From NCBI GenBank assembly GCA_900604495.1, contig UWOR01000005.1, forward strand, positions 62,001 through 126,000: 64,000 nucleotides of DNA. Reading direction: 5' to 3'. The notes below the pieces were generated by a model. It saw only the letters and a list, made by a program, of their open reading frames with translations, made no database searches and was not told the origin of the DNA. Below are positions 3,790 through 51,223 of this stretch, piece by piece. Numbering within the stretch: the stretch's first letter is position 1; the number at the start of each line of letters is the position of its first letter. The translations under genes were made by a program, and so were the position numbers. This DNA is from Desulfovibrio sp. Marseille-P6017. GTDB taxonomy: Bacteria; Bacillota_A; Clostridia; Peptostreptococcales; Peptostreptococcaceae.

Positions 3790-3944
3790 TATTATCACTC
3801 CTATAAGCTTACAATTATTTTTATACCGCTTGTAATCAATAATTATTGTAACTTAAACTTTATTTTTTTTAAAGTTATATTTTGTCACTTCCATATGTTA
3901 TTACTTTATGGTATAATTTTTTATGAATAACGAATATAACTAAT

Positions 3945-4106
3945 GATAGAGGTCGCGATATTAATAAGTAGTTCTGTGGAGGTAAGCACGTTGAAGCAAA
4001 ACAAAAGGTAATATTGCCGAAATATACAAGTGAAGCTTTAAGCTTGTATGTTGGGGTTATACATAATATGTATAACACTGTCACAATAATTTGTGGAGTA
4101 CTATCT
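3945..4106 (+). promoter_or_regulatory. Lysine riboswitch (L-box)
   Basis: The leader holds the conserved lysine aptamer blocks in order: GATAGAGGTCGCG, GTGGAGGTAAG, TAATATTGCCGAA, GTTGGGGTTATAC, ACACTGTCA and TGTGGAG, closed by a P1 helix GATAG (3945-3949) / CTATC (4101-4105). It is followed by a terminator at 4143-4170, and the P1 3' strand region CTATCTTTAG can partly pair with the terminator 5' arm CTAGAGTAG. Lysine binding should therefore favour termination. Promoter -10 TATAAT lies at 3912-3917. The regulated gene is the NhaC-family transporter. Confidence 0.9.
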
Positions 4107-4142
4107 TTAGATTAAGTCATATACTAAAAAATGATTAAGTCT

Positions 4143-19912: not shown

Positions 19913-21562
19913 TTAAAATATATTTTGATATGATAAACTATTAAGTTCTACTTCTATATTTCTTTCTTTATTCTCTAAAGATACCTTTATAAATTGTTTT
20001 ATTATCGGATTTGCACGATTTGGTCTACTCTTAAACTCTGGATGGTATTGAACTCCTACATAAAAATCATTATTTTCTACCTCTACAGCTTCTACTAATT
20101 TATCATCTGGCGATGTTCCGCATATAATCATTCCTGAATTTTCAAAAATCGCTCTATACTTATTATTAAACTCATATCTATGTCTATGTCTTTCTAATAT
20201 TTCACTAGTTTTATATGACTTGAACAATTGAGTATTTTCTTTTATTTTACAAGGGTATGCTCCCAATCTCATAGTACCTCCCTTTTGTAGGTTTCCATAT
20301 TGATCATGCATTAAATCTATTACAGGATACTTACCATAGTATACAAATTCACTAGAATTCGCTTCATGTAATTTTAATACATTTCTTGCAAACTCAATTA
20401 CTGCTATTTGCATACCTAAGCAAATACCCAAATATGGTATATTATTTTCTCTAGCATATCTAGCAGTTCTAATCATACCTTCTATCCCTCTATCTCCAAA
20501 TCCTCCAGGAACTAATATACCATCGCTATCCTTTAATAACTCATCTACTGTAATATCATTAACATATTCTGAATCAATCCAGTTTATCTCTATATTTAAT
20601 TTATTTTCATATCCTGCATGGTTAAGAGCTTCTACTACAGATAAGTATGCATCATGTAATTTTGTGTATTTACCAACTAAAGATATCTTTATACTCTTTT
20701 CTCTATTATCAATTCTATCTATCATATTGTTCCATTCAGCTAAATTACACTCATCATATTTTATTCCTAACTCTCTACATACAACTTTCGATAACCCATT
20801 TTCTTCTAACATAATTGGCACTTTGTAAAGCACATCTGTATTATTATTTTCTATAACACAGTCAGGTTTCACATTACAAAATAGTGCTATTTTTTGTTTT
20901 GTATTTTCATCAATTGCCTCATCAGATCTAGCCACAATAATATGTGGTGTTATTCCAAAGGATTGAAGTTCTTTTACTGAATGTTGAGTTGGCTTTGATT
21001 TAAACTCACCAGAACTACTTATATAAGGTATTAATGTAACATGTATAAATATACAATTATTTCTTCCAACTTCTTGATATATTTGTCTTATCGCTTCTAA
21101 AAATGGTTGACTTTCTATATCACCTGTTGTTCCCCCAATTTCAACTATAGCAATATCTGCATTGCTTTTTTCTCCAACGGAATATACAAAATCTTTTATT
21201 TCATTAGTTATGTGGGGAATTACCTGTACCGTTTCCTCTAAATACTCACCATTTCTCTCTTTCATAAGTACATTCCAGTATACTTTTCCAGTTGTTAAGT
21301 TTGAATATTTATTTAAATTCTCATCTATAAATCTTTCATAATGACCTAAATCTAAATCAGTTTCTGCTCCATCGTCTGTAACAAAAACTTCCCCATGTTG
21401 ATATGGACTCATAGTACCTGGATCTACGTTGATATAAGGATCTAGTTTTTGAGCAACTATTTTAAGTCCTCTATTTTTTAATAATCGTCCTAAAGATGCT
21501 GCTGTTATTCCTTTTCCTAAGCCAGATACAACTCCACCTGTTACAAATATAAATTTTGTCAT
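19913..21562 (-). CDS. pyrG: CTP synthase (glutamine hydrolysing)
   Basis: 549 residues, full length. It converts UTP to CTP using ATP and the amide of glutamine. The N-terminal synthetase domain starts [17 protein letters not shown] (P-loop, residues 2-18), with GTVPHIT-type, [12 protein letters not shown] and KTKPTQHSV-type stretches. The C-terminal class I glutaminase holds the nucleophile Cys near residue 381 in [10 protein letters not shown] and the His-Glu pair in YHPEFKS. The start ATG follows a GGAGTAAATA site. It is the third gene of a run glnA - ANTAR regulator - pyrG with 25-33 base gaps, so the glnA leader may control it too. Confidence 0.96.
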
Positions 21563-21587: not shown

Positions 21588-22157
21588 TTAATTTTCATAA
21601 GTTTTAAGTATATTTTGAGCTACTTCTTTTTTAGTAATTCTTCTGTCCATAGCTTGCTTTTCTATATATCTATGTGCTTGAGGCTCTGTCATATTTAAGT
21701 ATTGTATTAAAATACATTTTGCTCGATCTATTAACCTAATTTCACTTATTTTATTTTTTAGTTTCAAGTTTTCTTCCTTCAGTTTTGTTATTCTTTTTGT
21801 TGAAGTGGATATTAACTTAATTGCTTGATACAATAGTTGTTTATTTAAAGGTTTTTCAACAATAAATACACCAAAATCCTCAACTTTTGCAGATATCTCA
21901 TCTGCAATATTACTTTTTACCATAAGTATTACACCTGATGATGTATTTTCAGTTATATTTAAAGCTAAATCATGCCCAAATTCGTCAGTTAATGGTGCGT
22001 TTATAAGTACTATATCAAAATTATTTTGTATAAGAATTCTTCGTACTTCACTTCCATTGCTTACAGTTTCTATCTTAGAAAATCCACTCATTTTTATAAT
22101 TTCAGAAAGAATACTCTTCCCCTTTTCTGAACTCGATACAATTAAGGCACTTGACAT
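21588..22157 (-). CDS. ANTAR-domain response regulator (NitR-like antiterminator)
   Basis: About 189 residues. Residues 1-120 are a receiver-like domain (ALIVSSSEKGKSILSEII, FDIVLINAPL, VIVEKPLNKQ-type end), but the usual phospho-acceptor position reads LINAPL rather than an Asp, so it is probably a pseudo-receiver. A coiled segment follows, then a C-terminal ANTAR RNA-binding domain with the signature AKCILIQYLNMTEPQAHRYIEKQAMDRRITKKEVAQNIL. ANTAR proteins bind hexaloop hairpins and prevent termination. The gene is directly downstream of glnA, as nitR is in Clostridium saccharobutylicum. The start is taken as the second ATG (GGATGGTG upstream). Confidence 0.88.
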   Translation of the reverse strand: MSSALIVSSSEKGKSILSEIIKMSGFSKIETVSNGSEVRRILIQNNFDIVLINAPLTDEFGHDLALNITENTSSGVILMVKSNIADEISAKVEDFGVFIVEKPLNKQLLYQAIKLISTSTKRITKLKEENLKLKNKISEIRLIDRAKCILIQYLNMTEPQAHRYIEKQAMDRRITKKEVAQNILKTYEN

Positions 22158-22189
22158 ATATACACCATCCATTTCTTAAAAGATATACC

Positions 22190-23509
22190 TTAAACACTTA
22201 AGAAATATAATTCTCTTTCTACCTTTTCTTTGTCTGTTCTTGCGTCGTACTTTCTCCACTCATACTCCTTAGTCTCTATATATGTGTTGATTACATTTTC
22301 AGGTAATATACTTTTTATAAATCGGCTATTTTTTGACAAATTTATAGCTTCAAAAAGATTTTTAGGCAATGCATCTATATCATTTAAATTTTTTTGTAAT
22401 ATTTTATTTAAATTTACATCACAAGCTTCACAAAGCTGTAAATTATTTTCTATTCCTTCAAGTCCAGCTCTTATTATTAGAGCTAATGCTATATATGGAT
22501 TACAAGATGAATCAGATGATCTAACTTCAATATTTGTATATTCACCATCTCTTATATGAACTTTTATAAGTTGTGATAAATTTCTTTTAGACCAAGTTAT
22601 AAATTTAGGTGCTTGAAAATTTCCAAATCTATTATATGAATTCGTTATTGGATTTAGAAATAAAGTTATCTCCTTTAACCTATTCAATATTCCTGCAATA
22701 AACTTATCAGCCGTTTCTTTATCTACCATTTTAGGATCTTCAAATAAATTTAATTCATTTTTGCAAATCATAAAATTAAGATGTAATCCACTTCCACTTT
22801 CATTTGCAAGTGGCTTTGGCATAAATGATGCAAATAATCCATTTGTAGATGCTGTTGTTTTCACAACTGATTTAAAATTAATAATATTATCTGCAGCACT
22901 TAGTGGCCCACAGATTTTAAAATTTATTACATTTTGTCCCGGCCCATGATCATGATGTGAATTATTTAACTCTATTCCCATCTCATCTAATATTAGGCAT
23001 ATTTCTCTTCTAATGTTTTCACCTTTATCCAATGGTGCTATATCGCAGTAACTAGCAAAGTCTTGTGGTATATTTGTAGGGCTTCCATTTTCATCTAGTT
23101 CAAATAGGTAAAACTCGCACTCTGAACCTACTTTAAATAAATAACCTAAATCACGTCCTTTATCTATTACTGACTTCATTATATGTCTTCCATCACCCTC
23201 AAAATGACGACCATCAGGATACTTTATATCACAAAAAAATCTTATAACCCTTCCATGTTGAGGTCTCCAAGGAAGTATTGATAAAGTTTTTAGATCCGGA
23301 TATAAATATAAGTCACTATCTTCTATATTCATAAATCCACTCATAAAAGATGCATCAAATTTTACTCCATATTTTATCGCATCTTCTAACTCATTTGGCA
23401 TTATAGATATATTTCTTTGCATTCCAAAAATATCGCAAAATGCAAGTCTTATAAATTTAACATCGTTATCTTCAATAAACTCCATTACTTCACTCTCTTT
23501 ATAACTCAT
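22190..23509 (-). CDS. glnA: Glutamine synthetase type I
   Basis: 439 residues, the short GSI-alpha length. It makes glutamine from glutamate, ammonia and ATP. Visible signatures are CDIFGMQRNISI (beta-grasp), KVGSECEFYLFELD and HHDHGPGQNVINFK (metal and substrate residues), NESGSGLHLNF and NSYNRFG. No adenylylation-type extension is present. The start ATG 23509 has an AGGAGG site. The leader carries a TTGACA-17-TACAAT promoter, an AAAGGU hexaloop hairpin and an overlapping terminator, so expression should depend on antitermination by the ANTAR protein encoded next. It heads the glnA - ANTAR - pyrG run. Confidence 0.95.
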   Translation of the reverse strand: MSYKESEVMEFIEDNDVKFIRLAFCDIFGMQRNISIMPNELEDAIKYGVKFDASFMSGFMNIEDSDLYLYPDLKTLSILPWRPQHGRVIRFFCDIKYPDGRHFEGDGRHIMKSVIDKGRDLGYLFKVGSECEFYLFELDENGSPTNIPQDFASYCDIAPLDKGENIRREICLILDEMGIELNNSHHDHGPGQNVINFKICGPLSAADNIINFKSVVKTTASTNGLFASFMPKPLANESGSGLHLNFMICKNELNLFEDPKMVDKETADKFIAGILNRLKEITLFLNPITNSYNRFGNFQAPKFITWSKRNLSQLIKVHIRDGEYTNIEVRSSDSSCNPYIALALIIRAGLEGIENNLQLCEACDVNLNKILQKNLNDIDALPKNLFEAINLSKNSRFIKSILPENVINTYIETKEYEWRKYDARTDKEKVERELYFLSV

Positions 23510-23521
23510 AACGTCCTCCTA

Positions 23522-23587
23522 AAAATAATAAAAAGGTGCTCATCAAAAGATAAAAATACAGACTTTTACCTCATGATGAACACCTTT
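23522..23587 (-). terminator. Leader terminator of glnA (antitermination target)
   Basis: On the minus strand AAAGGTGTTCATCA (23574-23587) pairs with TGATGAGCACCTTT (23532-23545, one mismatch), followed by TTTTATTATTTTT just before the ribosome binding site of glnA. Its 5' arm shares bases with the hexaloop hairpin, so the two folds exclude each other. Confidence 0.82.
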
Positions 23588-23592
23588 GTTCA
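23577..23592 (-). promoter_or_regulatory. ANTAR-type hexaloop hairpin in glnA leader
   Basis: Minus-strand TGAAC-AAAGGT-GTTCA: a five-pair stem with a six-base loop that has A at position 1 and G at position 4, the pattern recognised by ANTAR antiterminators. It overlaps the 5' arm of the terminator. A possible second hairpin inside the terminator loop has a UCUGUA loop (G at 4, no A at 1) and is weak. Confidence 0.75.
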
Positions 23593-23606
23593 TTTTAATA
23601 TGTATA

Positions 23607-23635
23607 ATTGTAAAGCAGATATATATTTGTGTCAA
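23607..23635 (-). promoter_or_regulatory. glnA promoter
   Basis: TTGACA (23630-23635) and TACAAT (23607-23612) on the minus strand with exactly 17 bases between. Transcription would begin only a few bases before the hexaloop hairpin. Confidence 0.8.
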
Positions 23636-23703
23636 TATATTCCGATTATTTCGATTATTTTCAATAATAAAAAAATATTTATTTATAGATATATTTTTTT
23701 ATG

Positions 23704-23732
23704 TTGACAATCTAAAATTATTTTCATACAAT
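23704..23732 (+). promoter_or_regulatory. Promoter of type III glutamine synthetase gene
   Basis: TTGACA (23704-23709) and TACAAT (23727-23732) with 17 bases between: the same boxes and spacing as the divergent glnA promoter. Confidence 0.8.
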
Positions 23733-23754
23733 GACACTATAAATAATAAATAAA

Positions 23755-23770
23755 ACAGCAAAGGCGCTGT
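23755..23770 (+). promoter_or_regulatory. ANTAR-type hexaloop hairpin in leader of type III glutamine synthetase gene
   Basis: ACAGC-AAAGGC-GCTGT: a five-pair stem with a hexaloop that matches the glnA leader loop in five of six bases (A1, G4 present), on a stem of different sequence. It overlaps the following terminator. Confidence 0.75.
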
Positions 23771-23797
23771 AGGTTATTACCTACTGCGCTTTTTTTA
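23764..23797 (+). terminator. Leader terminator of type III glutamine synthetase gene
   Basis: GCGC-T-GTAGGT / ACCTAC-T-GCGC stem followed by eight T. The 5' arm uses the 3' half of the hexaloop hairpin, as in the glnA leader. It lies about 75 bases upstream of the start codon. Confidence 0.85.
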
Positions 23798-23872
23798 TTT
23801 TAAAAATAAAATATAAGATACAAAGAAGTTCTCTTATATTTAACTACTATAATAATTTGGGGGTAATTTATT

Positions 23873-25963
23873 ATGATAAATATTCCAGATATATTCGGAA
23901 GTATGGTATTTAATGATAAGGTAATGAAAGAAAGATTACCTAAGGATGTTTATAAAAAATTAAAAGAAACAATAGATGATGGATCAACTCTTGATATAAA
24001 TATAGCAAATATAGTTGCAAATTCTATGAAAGATTGGGCTATTGAAAAAGGTGCTACTCATTTTACTCATTGGTTCCAACCTATGACTGGCATAACTGCT
24101 GAAAAACATGATAGTTTTATTTCTCCTACATCTGATGGATCTGTGATAATGGAGTTTTCTGGAAAAGAACTTATAAAAGGTGAACCTGATGCATCAAGTT
24201 TTCCATCTGGAGGGCTTAGAAGTACCTTTGAAGCTAGAGGATATACAGCTTGGGATCCTACATCTTATGCATTTATAAGAGATAATACTTTATGTATACC
24301 TACTGTATTTTGCTCTTATTTAGGGGAAGTATTAGATAAGAAAACTCCTTTACTTAGATCTATGGAAGTTATAAATAAACAATCTTTAAGAATACTAAAA
24401 TTATTTGGTGATACTACTACAACTAGAGTAACAACTACAGTTGGTCCAGAACAAGAATATTTCTTAATAGATAAAAAGCTTTATGATAAAAGAGAAGATT
24501 TACAATTTTGTGGAAGAACTTTATTAGGTGCAAGATCTCCAAAAGGTCAAGAACTTAATGATCATTACTTTGGAGCTATAAAGCCTAGAGTTGCTGCATT
24601 TATGAAGGAACTAGATGAGGAACTTTGGAAATTAGGAGTATTATCAAAAACTGAACATAATGAAGTTGCTCCTGCTCAACATGAATTAGCTCCAATATTT
24701 GCTAATAGTAATGTTGCAAGTGACCATAATCAACTTGTAATGGATTTAATGAAAACTATCGCAATTAAACATGGCCTAGTTTGTCTTTTACATGAAAAAC
24801 CATTTGCTGGCCTTAATGGTAGTGGTAAACATAATAACTGGTCTTTATGTACTAACACTGGTAAGAATTTATTAAGCCCAGGAAAGAATCCTAGAGATAA
24901 TACTCAATTTTTATTATTCTTAGTAGCTGTAATAAAGGCAGTAGATGAATATCAAGATTTACTTAGAATATCCGTTTCAAGTGCTGGAAATGACCATCGT
25001 TTAGGAGGACATGAAGCTCCACCTGCAATAGTTTCTATGTTCTTAGGTTCTGATTTAGAGGCAGTTTTACAATCTATAGAAGATAATGTTGAATATAATC
25101 AATCCCTTGCTGCTAAGATGGAAATTGCTGTAGATGTACTACCTTCATTTAAAAAAGATTCTACTGATAGAAATAGAACTTCACCATTTGCATTTACAGG
25201 AAATAAATTTGAATTCCGTATGTTAGGTTCAACAGTTTCTATTGCTTGTCCGAATACTATTTTAAATACAATAGTAGGTAATTCATTATGTGAGTTTGCT
25301 GACTTGCTTGAAAAATCTGATGACTTTGAAAGTGATGTAAATAATTTGATAAGAGATACTTATTTAAAACATAAAAATATAATATTTAATGGAAATAATT
25401 ATTCTGATGAATGGGTAGAAGAAGCCAATAAAAGAGGTTTGTTTAACTTAAAAACTACAGTTGATGCTCTTCCTTATTATACATTAGATAAAAATATAAA
25501 ATTATTCGAAAAACATGGTATATATACTAAGGAAGAAATTGAGTCTAGATATGAAATACTTTTAGATGAATATTCTAAAACAATAAATATAGAAGCACTT
25601 ACTTTATGCGATATGATAAAAAAAGATGTTATACCAGCAGTTTGTGAGTATATAAAAGAATTAAGTGATACTGCTTTATCAAAAAAATCTCTTTCTTCTG
25701 ATATAGATTGTAGCTTAGAAATTGATTTAGTATCAAAACTTTCTTCATTAAATAGCTGCTTATCAAAAAGATTAGATACTTTGGATAATCTTCTTATAAA
25801 TTCTAAAGATTATGAAGGAACTTTAAGTACTGCAAAATATTATAAAGATAATATAATTCCTGCTATGCAAGAAGTAAGAGCCGTTGCTGATGAATTAGAA
25901 TTTATAGTTAGTGATAAATATTGGCCATATCCAACTTATGGTGATCTATTATTTAGTATATAG
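23873..25963 (+). CDS. glnN: Glutamine synthetase type III
   Basis: 696 residues, the length of the GSIII family. Signatures include [75 protein letters not shown] and [17 protein letters not shown], covering the ammonia, glutamate and ATP sites. It makes glutamine, probably under different conditions from glnA. ATG 23873 is preceded by GGGGGTAA. It is divergent from glnA with a mirror-image regulatory leader (promoter, AAAGGC hexaloop, terminator). The gene ends with its own terminator, so it is monocistronic. Confidence 0.95.
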
Positions 25964-42164: not shown

Positions 42165-42222
42165 CAAAATTCAAAATTATTATAACTCTCTAATTAATTT
42201 ACTAGATTATTATATTAATATC

Positions 42223-42306
42223 TACTCTTGCTTTCCTACGCTGGTACTAACCAGATCAGGTAATAAGGGTCGGTATAAACCTCTCAGCCAATGGCACCCC
42301 TAGCAT
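42223..42306 (-). promoter_or_regulatory. TPP riboswitch (THI box)
   Basis: The minus strand shows the aptamer core in order: AGGGGTGCC, GGCTGAGAGG, ACCCTTATTACCTGATCTGG and GTACCAGCGTAGG. A terminator follows. The riboswitch should turn off thiT when thiamine pyrophosphate is plentiful. Confidence 0.95.
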
Positions 42307-42488
42307 TAATTATTTACTTATAATTTAATTGTAATATATTTTTTTATATTGTCAATTATTAATTATATAATTTAGACATATTAAATGAATATATAAAATA
42401 GATTTATATTACAAAATTATCATAGAATATTTTCAAACGTGTAAGTTAAAAATATGCTTAGACTATTATTGAAAGGAATATTTTTAAC

Positions 42489-50875: not shown

Positions 50876-50959
50876 TGCCATCAAAAGTAAACATCATAAA
50901 ATTATCTTTTACCATAAGTGAGCATAAGATTTTTATACGAACAAAGAATTTGTATTCTT

Positions 50960-51037
50960 CGGCAACTGGCTGGCATAGTTAATAATTAACCTTAGCCCCT
51001 TTAGCTTTGCGTCTCTAGATTTCTCTAGATTTGCCTA
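50960..51037 (-). promoter_or_regulatory. Cyclic di-GMP-I (GEMM) riboswitch, OFF type
   Basis: The minus strand reads AGGCAAA, a TCTAGA-GAAA-TCTAGA tetraloop helix, GACGCAAAGC, GGGGCTAAGG, ATGCCAGCC and AGTTGCCG. These are the conserved blocks of the GEMM-I aptamer in order, with P1 GGCAA / TTGCC. A terminator follows, so ligand binding should stop transcription of the metalloprotease gene. Confidence 0.92.
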
Positions 51038-51223
51038 TGAAATTTTAATTTATTCTACCATATTTTTACAGTAATCACAATGTTATTTTTATAATCTATA
51101 TATTTTAATTATATTAATCTCATTTTAAATAAATATGTATATACACTAAAAAAGGTCTATCTACTTGATAGACTTTAGTTATATTTTAAATTTAATTAAA
51201 GTTATATATATTTTTTAGTCACT

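Follow-up and report, generated by a model that had tools for sequence, protein, structure and literature searches.

Predicted single-hexaloop attenuators before divergent glutamine synthetase genes and their candidate ANTAR regulator in Clostridia

Two short leaders that diverge from one intergenic region, one preceding a glnA-like gene and one preceding the gene of a type III glutamine synthetase (GSIII), are very likely transcription attenuators that are controlled by an ANTAR protein through a single-hexaloop site and that allow read-through when nitrogen is short. They are located in a 64,000-nucleotide stretch of DNA, hereafter called the window. As judged by comparison with relatives, the combination of hexaloop hairpin and terminator is a real, conserved regulatory element; protein binding, antitermination, and nitrogen limitation as the signal are the parts that we infer. 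The main novelty is this conserved, predicted antiterminator, which is built from one hexaloop and lacks a second hairpin.

The divergent locus and its two leaders

The glnA-like gene (22190..23509, minus strand) encodes a protein of 439 residues with the Gln-synt_C and Gln-synt_N domains of Pfam, which is probably catalytically defective. Directly behind it lies the gene of the regulator (21588..22172, minus strand), whose 194 residues comprise a pseudo-receiver, a coiled coil, and an ANTAR domain, followed after 25 nt by the CTP synthase gene pyrG (19913..21562, minus strand; assigned by Pfam). The GSIII gene (23873..25963, plus strand) forms a divergent pair with glnA. Its product of 696 residues (GSIII_N, 279.6 bits) is apparently intact and, aligned with 47 further full-length GSIII proteins, deviates at two of the 224 columns that at least 97% of these keep. 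The original prediction had spoken of two glutamine synthetases; this holds for GSIII and is doubtful for GlnA, where several catalytic residues are lost. pyrG probably belongs to one operon with glnA and the ANTAR gene, and it also follows the latter closely in four relatives' loci (L001–L004). CTP synthesis, by way of this glutamine-dependent CTP synthase, may be under common control with glnA–ANTAR. Elsewhere in the window, riboswitches reach the Rfam gathering score for lysine (3939–4111, plus strand), TPP (42216–42311, minus strand), and c-di-GMP-I (50958–51045, minus strand).

Both leaders have a σA-type promoter of the form TTGACA-17-TACAAT (11 of 12 matches each), located at 23607..23635 on the minus strand for the glnA operon and at 23704..23732 on the plus strand for GSIII. 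Taken alone, these promoters are not significant, since 4.5 promoter-like sites are expected per shuffle in a simple scan. The −10 element is followed after 14 and 22 nt, respectively, by a 5-bp stem that carries a hexaloop, the candidate antiterminator. On the glnA side, this hairpin is TGAAC[AAAGGT]GTTCA (23577..23592, minus strand; UGAAC[AAAGGU]GUUCA as RNA), to which similar elements of relatives are collected in alignment A3. On the GSIII side, it is ACAGC[AAAGGC]GCTGT (23755..23770, plus strand; ACAGC[AAAGGC]GCUGU as RNA), represented by the 34 elements of alignment A2. Five of the six loop bases are equal between the two. Intrinsic terminators with a U tract follow at about 23528..23587 (minus strand, −28.7 kcal/mol) and about 23760..23797 (plus strand, −19.3 kcal/mol). 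In both leaders, the 5′ arm of the terminator consists of the loop and the 3′ arm of the hexaloop hairpin, and the two folds are mutually exclusive. Promoters, hairpins, near-identical loops, and base-sharing terminators are all located where the original prediction had placed them.

For each leader, the RNAfold optimum is the terminator. The isolated hexaloop hairpins reach just −3.9 kcal/mol on the glnA side and −5.4 kcal/mol on the GSIII side, far weaker than the terminators, and the minus-strand loop can close further by an A1–U6 pair into a tetraloop. Hence, a protein or folding kinetics would be needed for the hairpin to form. No Rfam family was found at gathering score in the leaders of the window or at the corresponding leaders of seven relatives' loci; with relaxed thresholds, the intergenic region of the window gave 26 weak matches, all of them below the gathering score.

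By default, the nascent RNA would fold into the terminator and transcription would stop. Under nitrogen shortage, the ANTAR protein from the gene behind glnA would grip the hexaloop hairpin near the 5′ end of the transcript and, because hairpin and terminator share bases, the polymerase would read through. Read-through would lead into glnA–ANTAR–pyrG on one strand, thus creating autocontrol, and into GSIII on the other. One hexaloop would suffice, unlike at the targets of EutV, NasR, and AmiR. The signal would probably reach the pseudo-receiver via a protein partner, for which GlnA is the leading candidate.

Conservation and distribution of the element

An alignment of 27 regulators was used to scan genome contigs for loci of relatives; the best 80 loci were taken as a sample. 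Viral contigs gave 59 pattern matches, none of which encodes a relative. In the best 80 loci and the window, 104 combinations of terminator and hexaloop of the type AxxGG[CTG] were found, compared with 21 in a Markov-1 control. When the loop sequence was left unconstrained and a stem of at least 4 bp was required, a hexaloop competing with a terminator was present in 33 of the 38 GSIII leaders of ANTAR-bearing loci, window included, as opposed to 1.35 per set in Markov controls; the five leaders without a match are those of L010, L024, L033, L041, and L059. Loop positions A1, A2, G4, and G5 are identical in the best hexaloops of all 33 leaders and position 3 varies, each loop reading AANGG[CT]. 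An 8-nt loop was obtained as well from 26 GSIII leaders and is taken to be the same hairpin minus its closing pair. The original prediction had been made to depend on conservation of the loop in relatives, which was found both in these leaders and in alignments A2 and A3.

The mirror-image arrangement of two divergent leaders recurs in 32 of the 81 loci formed by the best 80 and the window. No element was seen in 25 of these 81, some of which are short contigs and seven of which are labeled Treponema or Spirochaetaceae. In the Treponema loci, no element was seen before glnA, and the upstream frame resembles, by eye, the C terminus of GlmS in several of them. In many relatives, glnA is part of a longer operon whose first gene is preceded by the element, which is why a first scan of glnA leaders recovered it in only a minority of loci. 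In L033 and L059, GSIII is preceded by a frame that resembles the C terminus of AsnA, and an element is located further upstream. A number of relatives, as exemplified by L040:1639-8579 (plus strand), have an operon of split glutamate-synthase-like genes that is led by the same hexaloop element and ends in glnA–ANTAR. The split genes comprise GATase, FMN domain, ferredoxin, oxidoreductase, and GXGXG parts, as read by eye.

From 81 filtered elements, 34 of the GSIII or AsnA type were assembled into alignment A2 and 35 of the operon and amt type into A3, with members selected by a filter on the loop and a stem length of at least 4 bp. In both alignments, changes at positions 3 and 6 of the loop are compensated in the terminator strand, whereas A1, A2, G4, and G5 stay constant. 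The hexaloop stem of A2 shows two-sided changes at two of its five pairs, six such cells in all, a level that 0 of 500 shuffles reached in cells and 22 of 500 in pairs. The 97.6% pairing of this stem is not independent evidence, because a stem was required for an element to be included. Different stems (CAGC, GAAC, CAC) carry one common loop.

AAAGGC is a common terminator base. Conservation of the loop from the terminator alone was considered and rejected: terminators in these loci that begin with AAxGGx are bimodal, the flanking 5′ arm that the terminator does not use being complementary by at least four Watson–Crick pairs in 71 of 187 and showing no complement in 87 of 187, the latter including some of these terminators counted again from the opposite strand.

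The genomes of 12 relatives were searched with covariance models derived from A2 and A3. Matches whose loci were retrieved are located before GSIII, before the GATase–glutamate synthase–glnA operon or glnA itself, and before genes of ammonium transporters (L088, L095, L096, L119, L123, L134), AsnA (L113, L117), AsnB (L110), and a GltB-like GATase_2 protein (L137); the element precedes AsnB in L041 as well. The downstream proteins were confirmed by Pfam for L096, L119, L123, L134, L110, L113, L117, and L137 and read by eye for the others. The gene behind a strong match (L114, 60.4 bits) encodes a solute-binding protein of the SBP_bac_5 family, possibly for peptide uptake. Weaker matches lie before a PucR-like regulator (L099) and in L103 and L126, and a methionine-aminopeptidase-like or thiolase-like gene is also among those behind weaker matches. 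Some matches thus precede genes that are not obviously about nitrogen. In L003 and L057, an ammonium-transporter gene, its PII part recognized by eye, directly follows GSIII, and a single-hexaloop element without a called promoter lies in between (L003:3996-4046 and L057:4089-4149, both minus strand), possibly acting as an internal attenuator within the operon. The genes served cover ammonium uptake, glutamine, glutamate, and asparagine, and the short leader is directly testable in vitro.

The association with the ANTAR protein was assessed in 146 genomes of the family to which the Clostridium celatum locus belongs. The ANTAR subfamily of the window type (E < 1e-50) is carried by eight of them, and all eight have a match to model R1 at E ≤ 1e-3. 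Full-length R1 matches at E ≤ 1e-5 occur in ten genomes, each with an ANTAR domain, as opposed to 77 of 146 genomes overall. GSIII is encoded by 39 genomes of the family, one of which (G111) was left out with only 39 nt of leader at a contig edge. In the remainder, a GSIII leader with hexaloop and terminator was found in 14 of 28 genomes with ANTAR and in 0 of 10 without (Fisher p = 0.006, relatedness ignored); G154, whose stem has 3 bp, and G151, which has the hairpin but whose terminator escaped the script, were scored as negative. By this strict scan, the element is absent from the other 14 ANTAR-positive GSIII genomes, two of which have a weak form. The seven of these genomes that were inspected contain a second ANTAR subfamily behind a classical glnA (L184–L190), which we take to be NitR. 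The GSIII leaders of six of these show other stems with the loops AATGGC, AATGGG, AACGGA, or AACGGC; the leader of the seventh (G022) has no hexaloop.

These counts bear on whether the ANTAR neighbor is coincidental and the hairpin is instead recognized by another factor or merely stabilizes the 5′ end. The 5′ end of a transcript is a known place for stabilizing stems, and the hairpin is located there in most predicted transcripts. Such an explanation is nonetheless improbable. Although only the ANTAR protein was used to find the loci, 77 of the best 80 have a glnA frame directly upstream of its gene (cut by a contig end in two), and the remaining three (L024, L053, L075) have a GSIII gene beside it. 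In addition, every genome of the subfamily has an R1 match, all genomes with a strong R1 match have ANTAR, and A1 and G4 of the loop agree with the rule for ANTAR target RNAs as given in PMC3369931.

It is likewise hard to see the palindromes as DNA operators of a repressor or activator, with the terminators being incidental or fail-safe. ACAGC-N6-GCTGT and TGAAC-N6-GTTCA do look operator-like and lie at the predicted start. However, the arms differ between targets, whereas it is the asymmetric center that stays constant, reading AANGG[CT] from 5′ to 3′ on the RNA strand in 33 of 33 leaders. Moreover, changes in the loop and the 3′ arm are matched by changes in the terminator, and the amt-type elements 3′ of GSIII have no called promoter.

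One hexaloop in place of two

In the criteria for ANTAR target RNAs that Ramesh et al. 2012 give for dual hexaloops, an A1/G4 hexaloop overlapping a terminator is combined with a further hexaloop hairpin, P1, located upstream across a short linker; the elements described here contain the former and lack the latter. For EutV, deletion of P1 is reported to abolish induction, both hairpins being needed in vivo (PMC3369931), and NasR is described as binding one hairpin more weakly, at about 12 μM (PMC7496416). The original prediction had called the second hairpin weak or missing and suggested a reduced recognition site. The hairpin proves to be missing, and the reduction is general.

For these counts, near-identical elements and those with less than 70 nt upstream were excluded, which leaves 87. 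A promoter with at least 9 of 12 matches precedes 80 of them, a score that 20% of shuffles reach. In these promoter-bearing elements, the predicted −10 is separated from the stem by a median of 10 nt, and the predicted RNA before the stem has a median length of 4 nt and is shorter than 15 nt in 74 of 80. Hence, there is no room for P1 in these 74, as less than 15 nt is too short for a hexaloop hairpin of 3 bp plus a 3-nt linker. P1 is absent between the predicted start and the stem in all 80 elements. A P1-like hexaloop within 2 to 20 nt upstream occurs in one of the 87, rarer than expected by chance (4.05), and this sole case lies inside the promoter. The eut leaders of the same family served as a positive control: the script detected a dual hexaloop in 21 of 30, of which about 19 are convincing by eye, with linkers of mostly 7 to 11 nt. 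Herein, the script preferred P1-bearing candidates over the whole locus, which favored the count; two of the matches (L210, L229) look spurious, and 19 of 30 was entered in the Fisher test. A canonical dual-hexaloop site with P1 degenerate or further upstream, as would agree with the dual nature of the characterized sites described in PMC3369931 and PMC7496416 and with the 16 nt of predicted RNA before the stem of the window GSIII leader, has a very slight chance of being correct against this absence of P1 and this control.

The single-hexaloop reading relates to a question left by the EutV structure of 2022, in which the dimer grips one hexaloop at a time; its authors asked why two are needed and left the part played by single-hexaloop sites to further work (PMC8934654). 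Natural terminator-coupled single-hexaloop sites across Clostridia would be candidates for answering it. As described for Enterococcus faecalis (PMC3369931, PMC8934654), EutV and the eut leaders combine two hexaloops, a constrained linker, and a phosphorylated receiver, whereas the system described here lacks a phospho-acceptor and has a single hexaloop, in most cases at the 5′ end. Ramesh et al. 2012 list predicted ANTAR RNAs before ammonium transporter, PII, and glutamate/glutamine synthase genes, as here; their search model, as set out in PMC3369931, required two hairpins, unlike the elements of the window type. No description of a single-hexaloop ANTAR antiterminator at such genes was found in the literature searched; the leader analysis of Stutz et al. 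2007 may overlap with the present one.

The regulator and the degenerate GlnA

The regulator of the window matches the ANTAR domain PF03861 with 64.7 bits (curated cut-off 27.3). In its receiver, the phospho-acceptor Asp is replaced by Asn58, which is invariant in the 27 sequences of the regulator alignment A1; to judge from this residue, the domain is a pseudo-receiver, unlike the two-component EutV type. By our own mapping, the RNA contacts K143, K147, K149, and E160 of EutV correspond to R146, R150, K152, and E163, while R142 becomes Ile145 and Tyr164 becomes His167, so that four of six contact residues are kept or conservatively replaced. In an alignment comparison, AmiR has His at the position of EutV Tyr164 as well.

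That the ANTAR gene lies directly behind glnA is correct, as originally predicted; the comparison with NitR drawn there needs a correction. The window regulator is 27 to 32% identical (E 2.5e-16 to 3.2e-12) to the ANTAR proteins behind classical glnA in the seven Clostridium-family genomes and, because of this low identity, is placed in a separate subfamily from presumed NitR. By eye, the receiver of the presumed NitR proteins seems to be without the usual phospho-acceptor Asp.

The general idea that ANTAR proteins control glutamine and glutamate synthase genes has already been put forward in the accounts of PMC3369931 and PMC6316151. NitR of Clostridium saccharobutylicum, whose gene follows glnA (Stutz et al. 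2007, as cited in PMC6316151), is likewise an ANTAR protein of ammonium assimilation, and its antitermination is said there to induce GS/GOGAT genes upon nitrogen limitation. In Clostridium thermocellum, an ANTAR gene is co-expressed with a GATase/glutamate-synthase cluster (Clo1313_2030-2036), for which the authors suggest antitermination; the passages of PMC4676874 on this cluster describe no RNA element, hexaloop, or link to GSIII.

Aligned to the glutamine synthetase (GS) of B. subtilis, the window GlnA carries the substitutions E189D, E196V, R316L, R321K, and R331N, at positions that presumably bind metal and substrate phosphates (B. subtilis numbering). It thus differs at 5 of the 14 residues examined, all of which are kept by 117 of 123 aligned proteins. 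R316L, R321K, and R331N or K occur in the window GlnA and also in its closest relatives, P0121–P0123 (94, 76, and 75% identical), and further residues are lost in the window protein and in P0121 and P0122, not in P0123. The window GlnA may be a pseudoenzyme, a trait that P0121–P0123 would share in part.

That it is retained before the ANTAR gene despite the apparent loss of catalysis hints at a role in sensing, comparable to that of AmiC and of GS–TnrA in Bacillus. AmiR–AmiC, as outlined in the literature, likewise features a pseudo-receiver ANTAR protein held by a signal-sensing partner, and in NasT–NasS an ANTAR regulator is held in the same manner. The candidate partner in the window would differ from AmiC and NasS by being a relative of glutamine synthetase. 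We offer tentatively, as a rather doubtful extension, that a noncatalytic GlnA acts as glutamine sensor that holds and releases the ANTAR protein while GSIII serves as the enzyme, with one hexaloop and with neither a second hairpin nor phosphorylation being needed. Nitrogen control would herein rest on a pseudo-receiver, possibly together with a degenerate glutamine synthetase. At 13 of 75 other loci (counted by hand; many are draft metagenome genomes), GlnA lacks one or more of the residues in a strict set that comprises D50, E132, E134, E189, E196, H245, R298, R316, R321, R331, E333, and R335.
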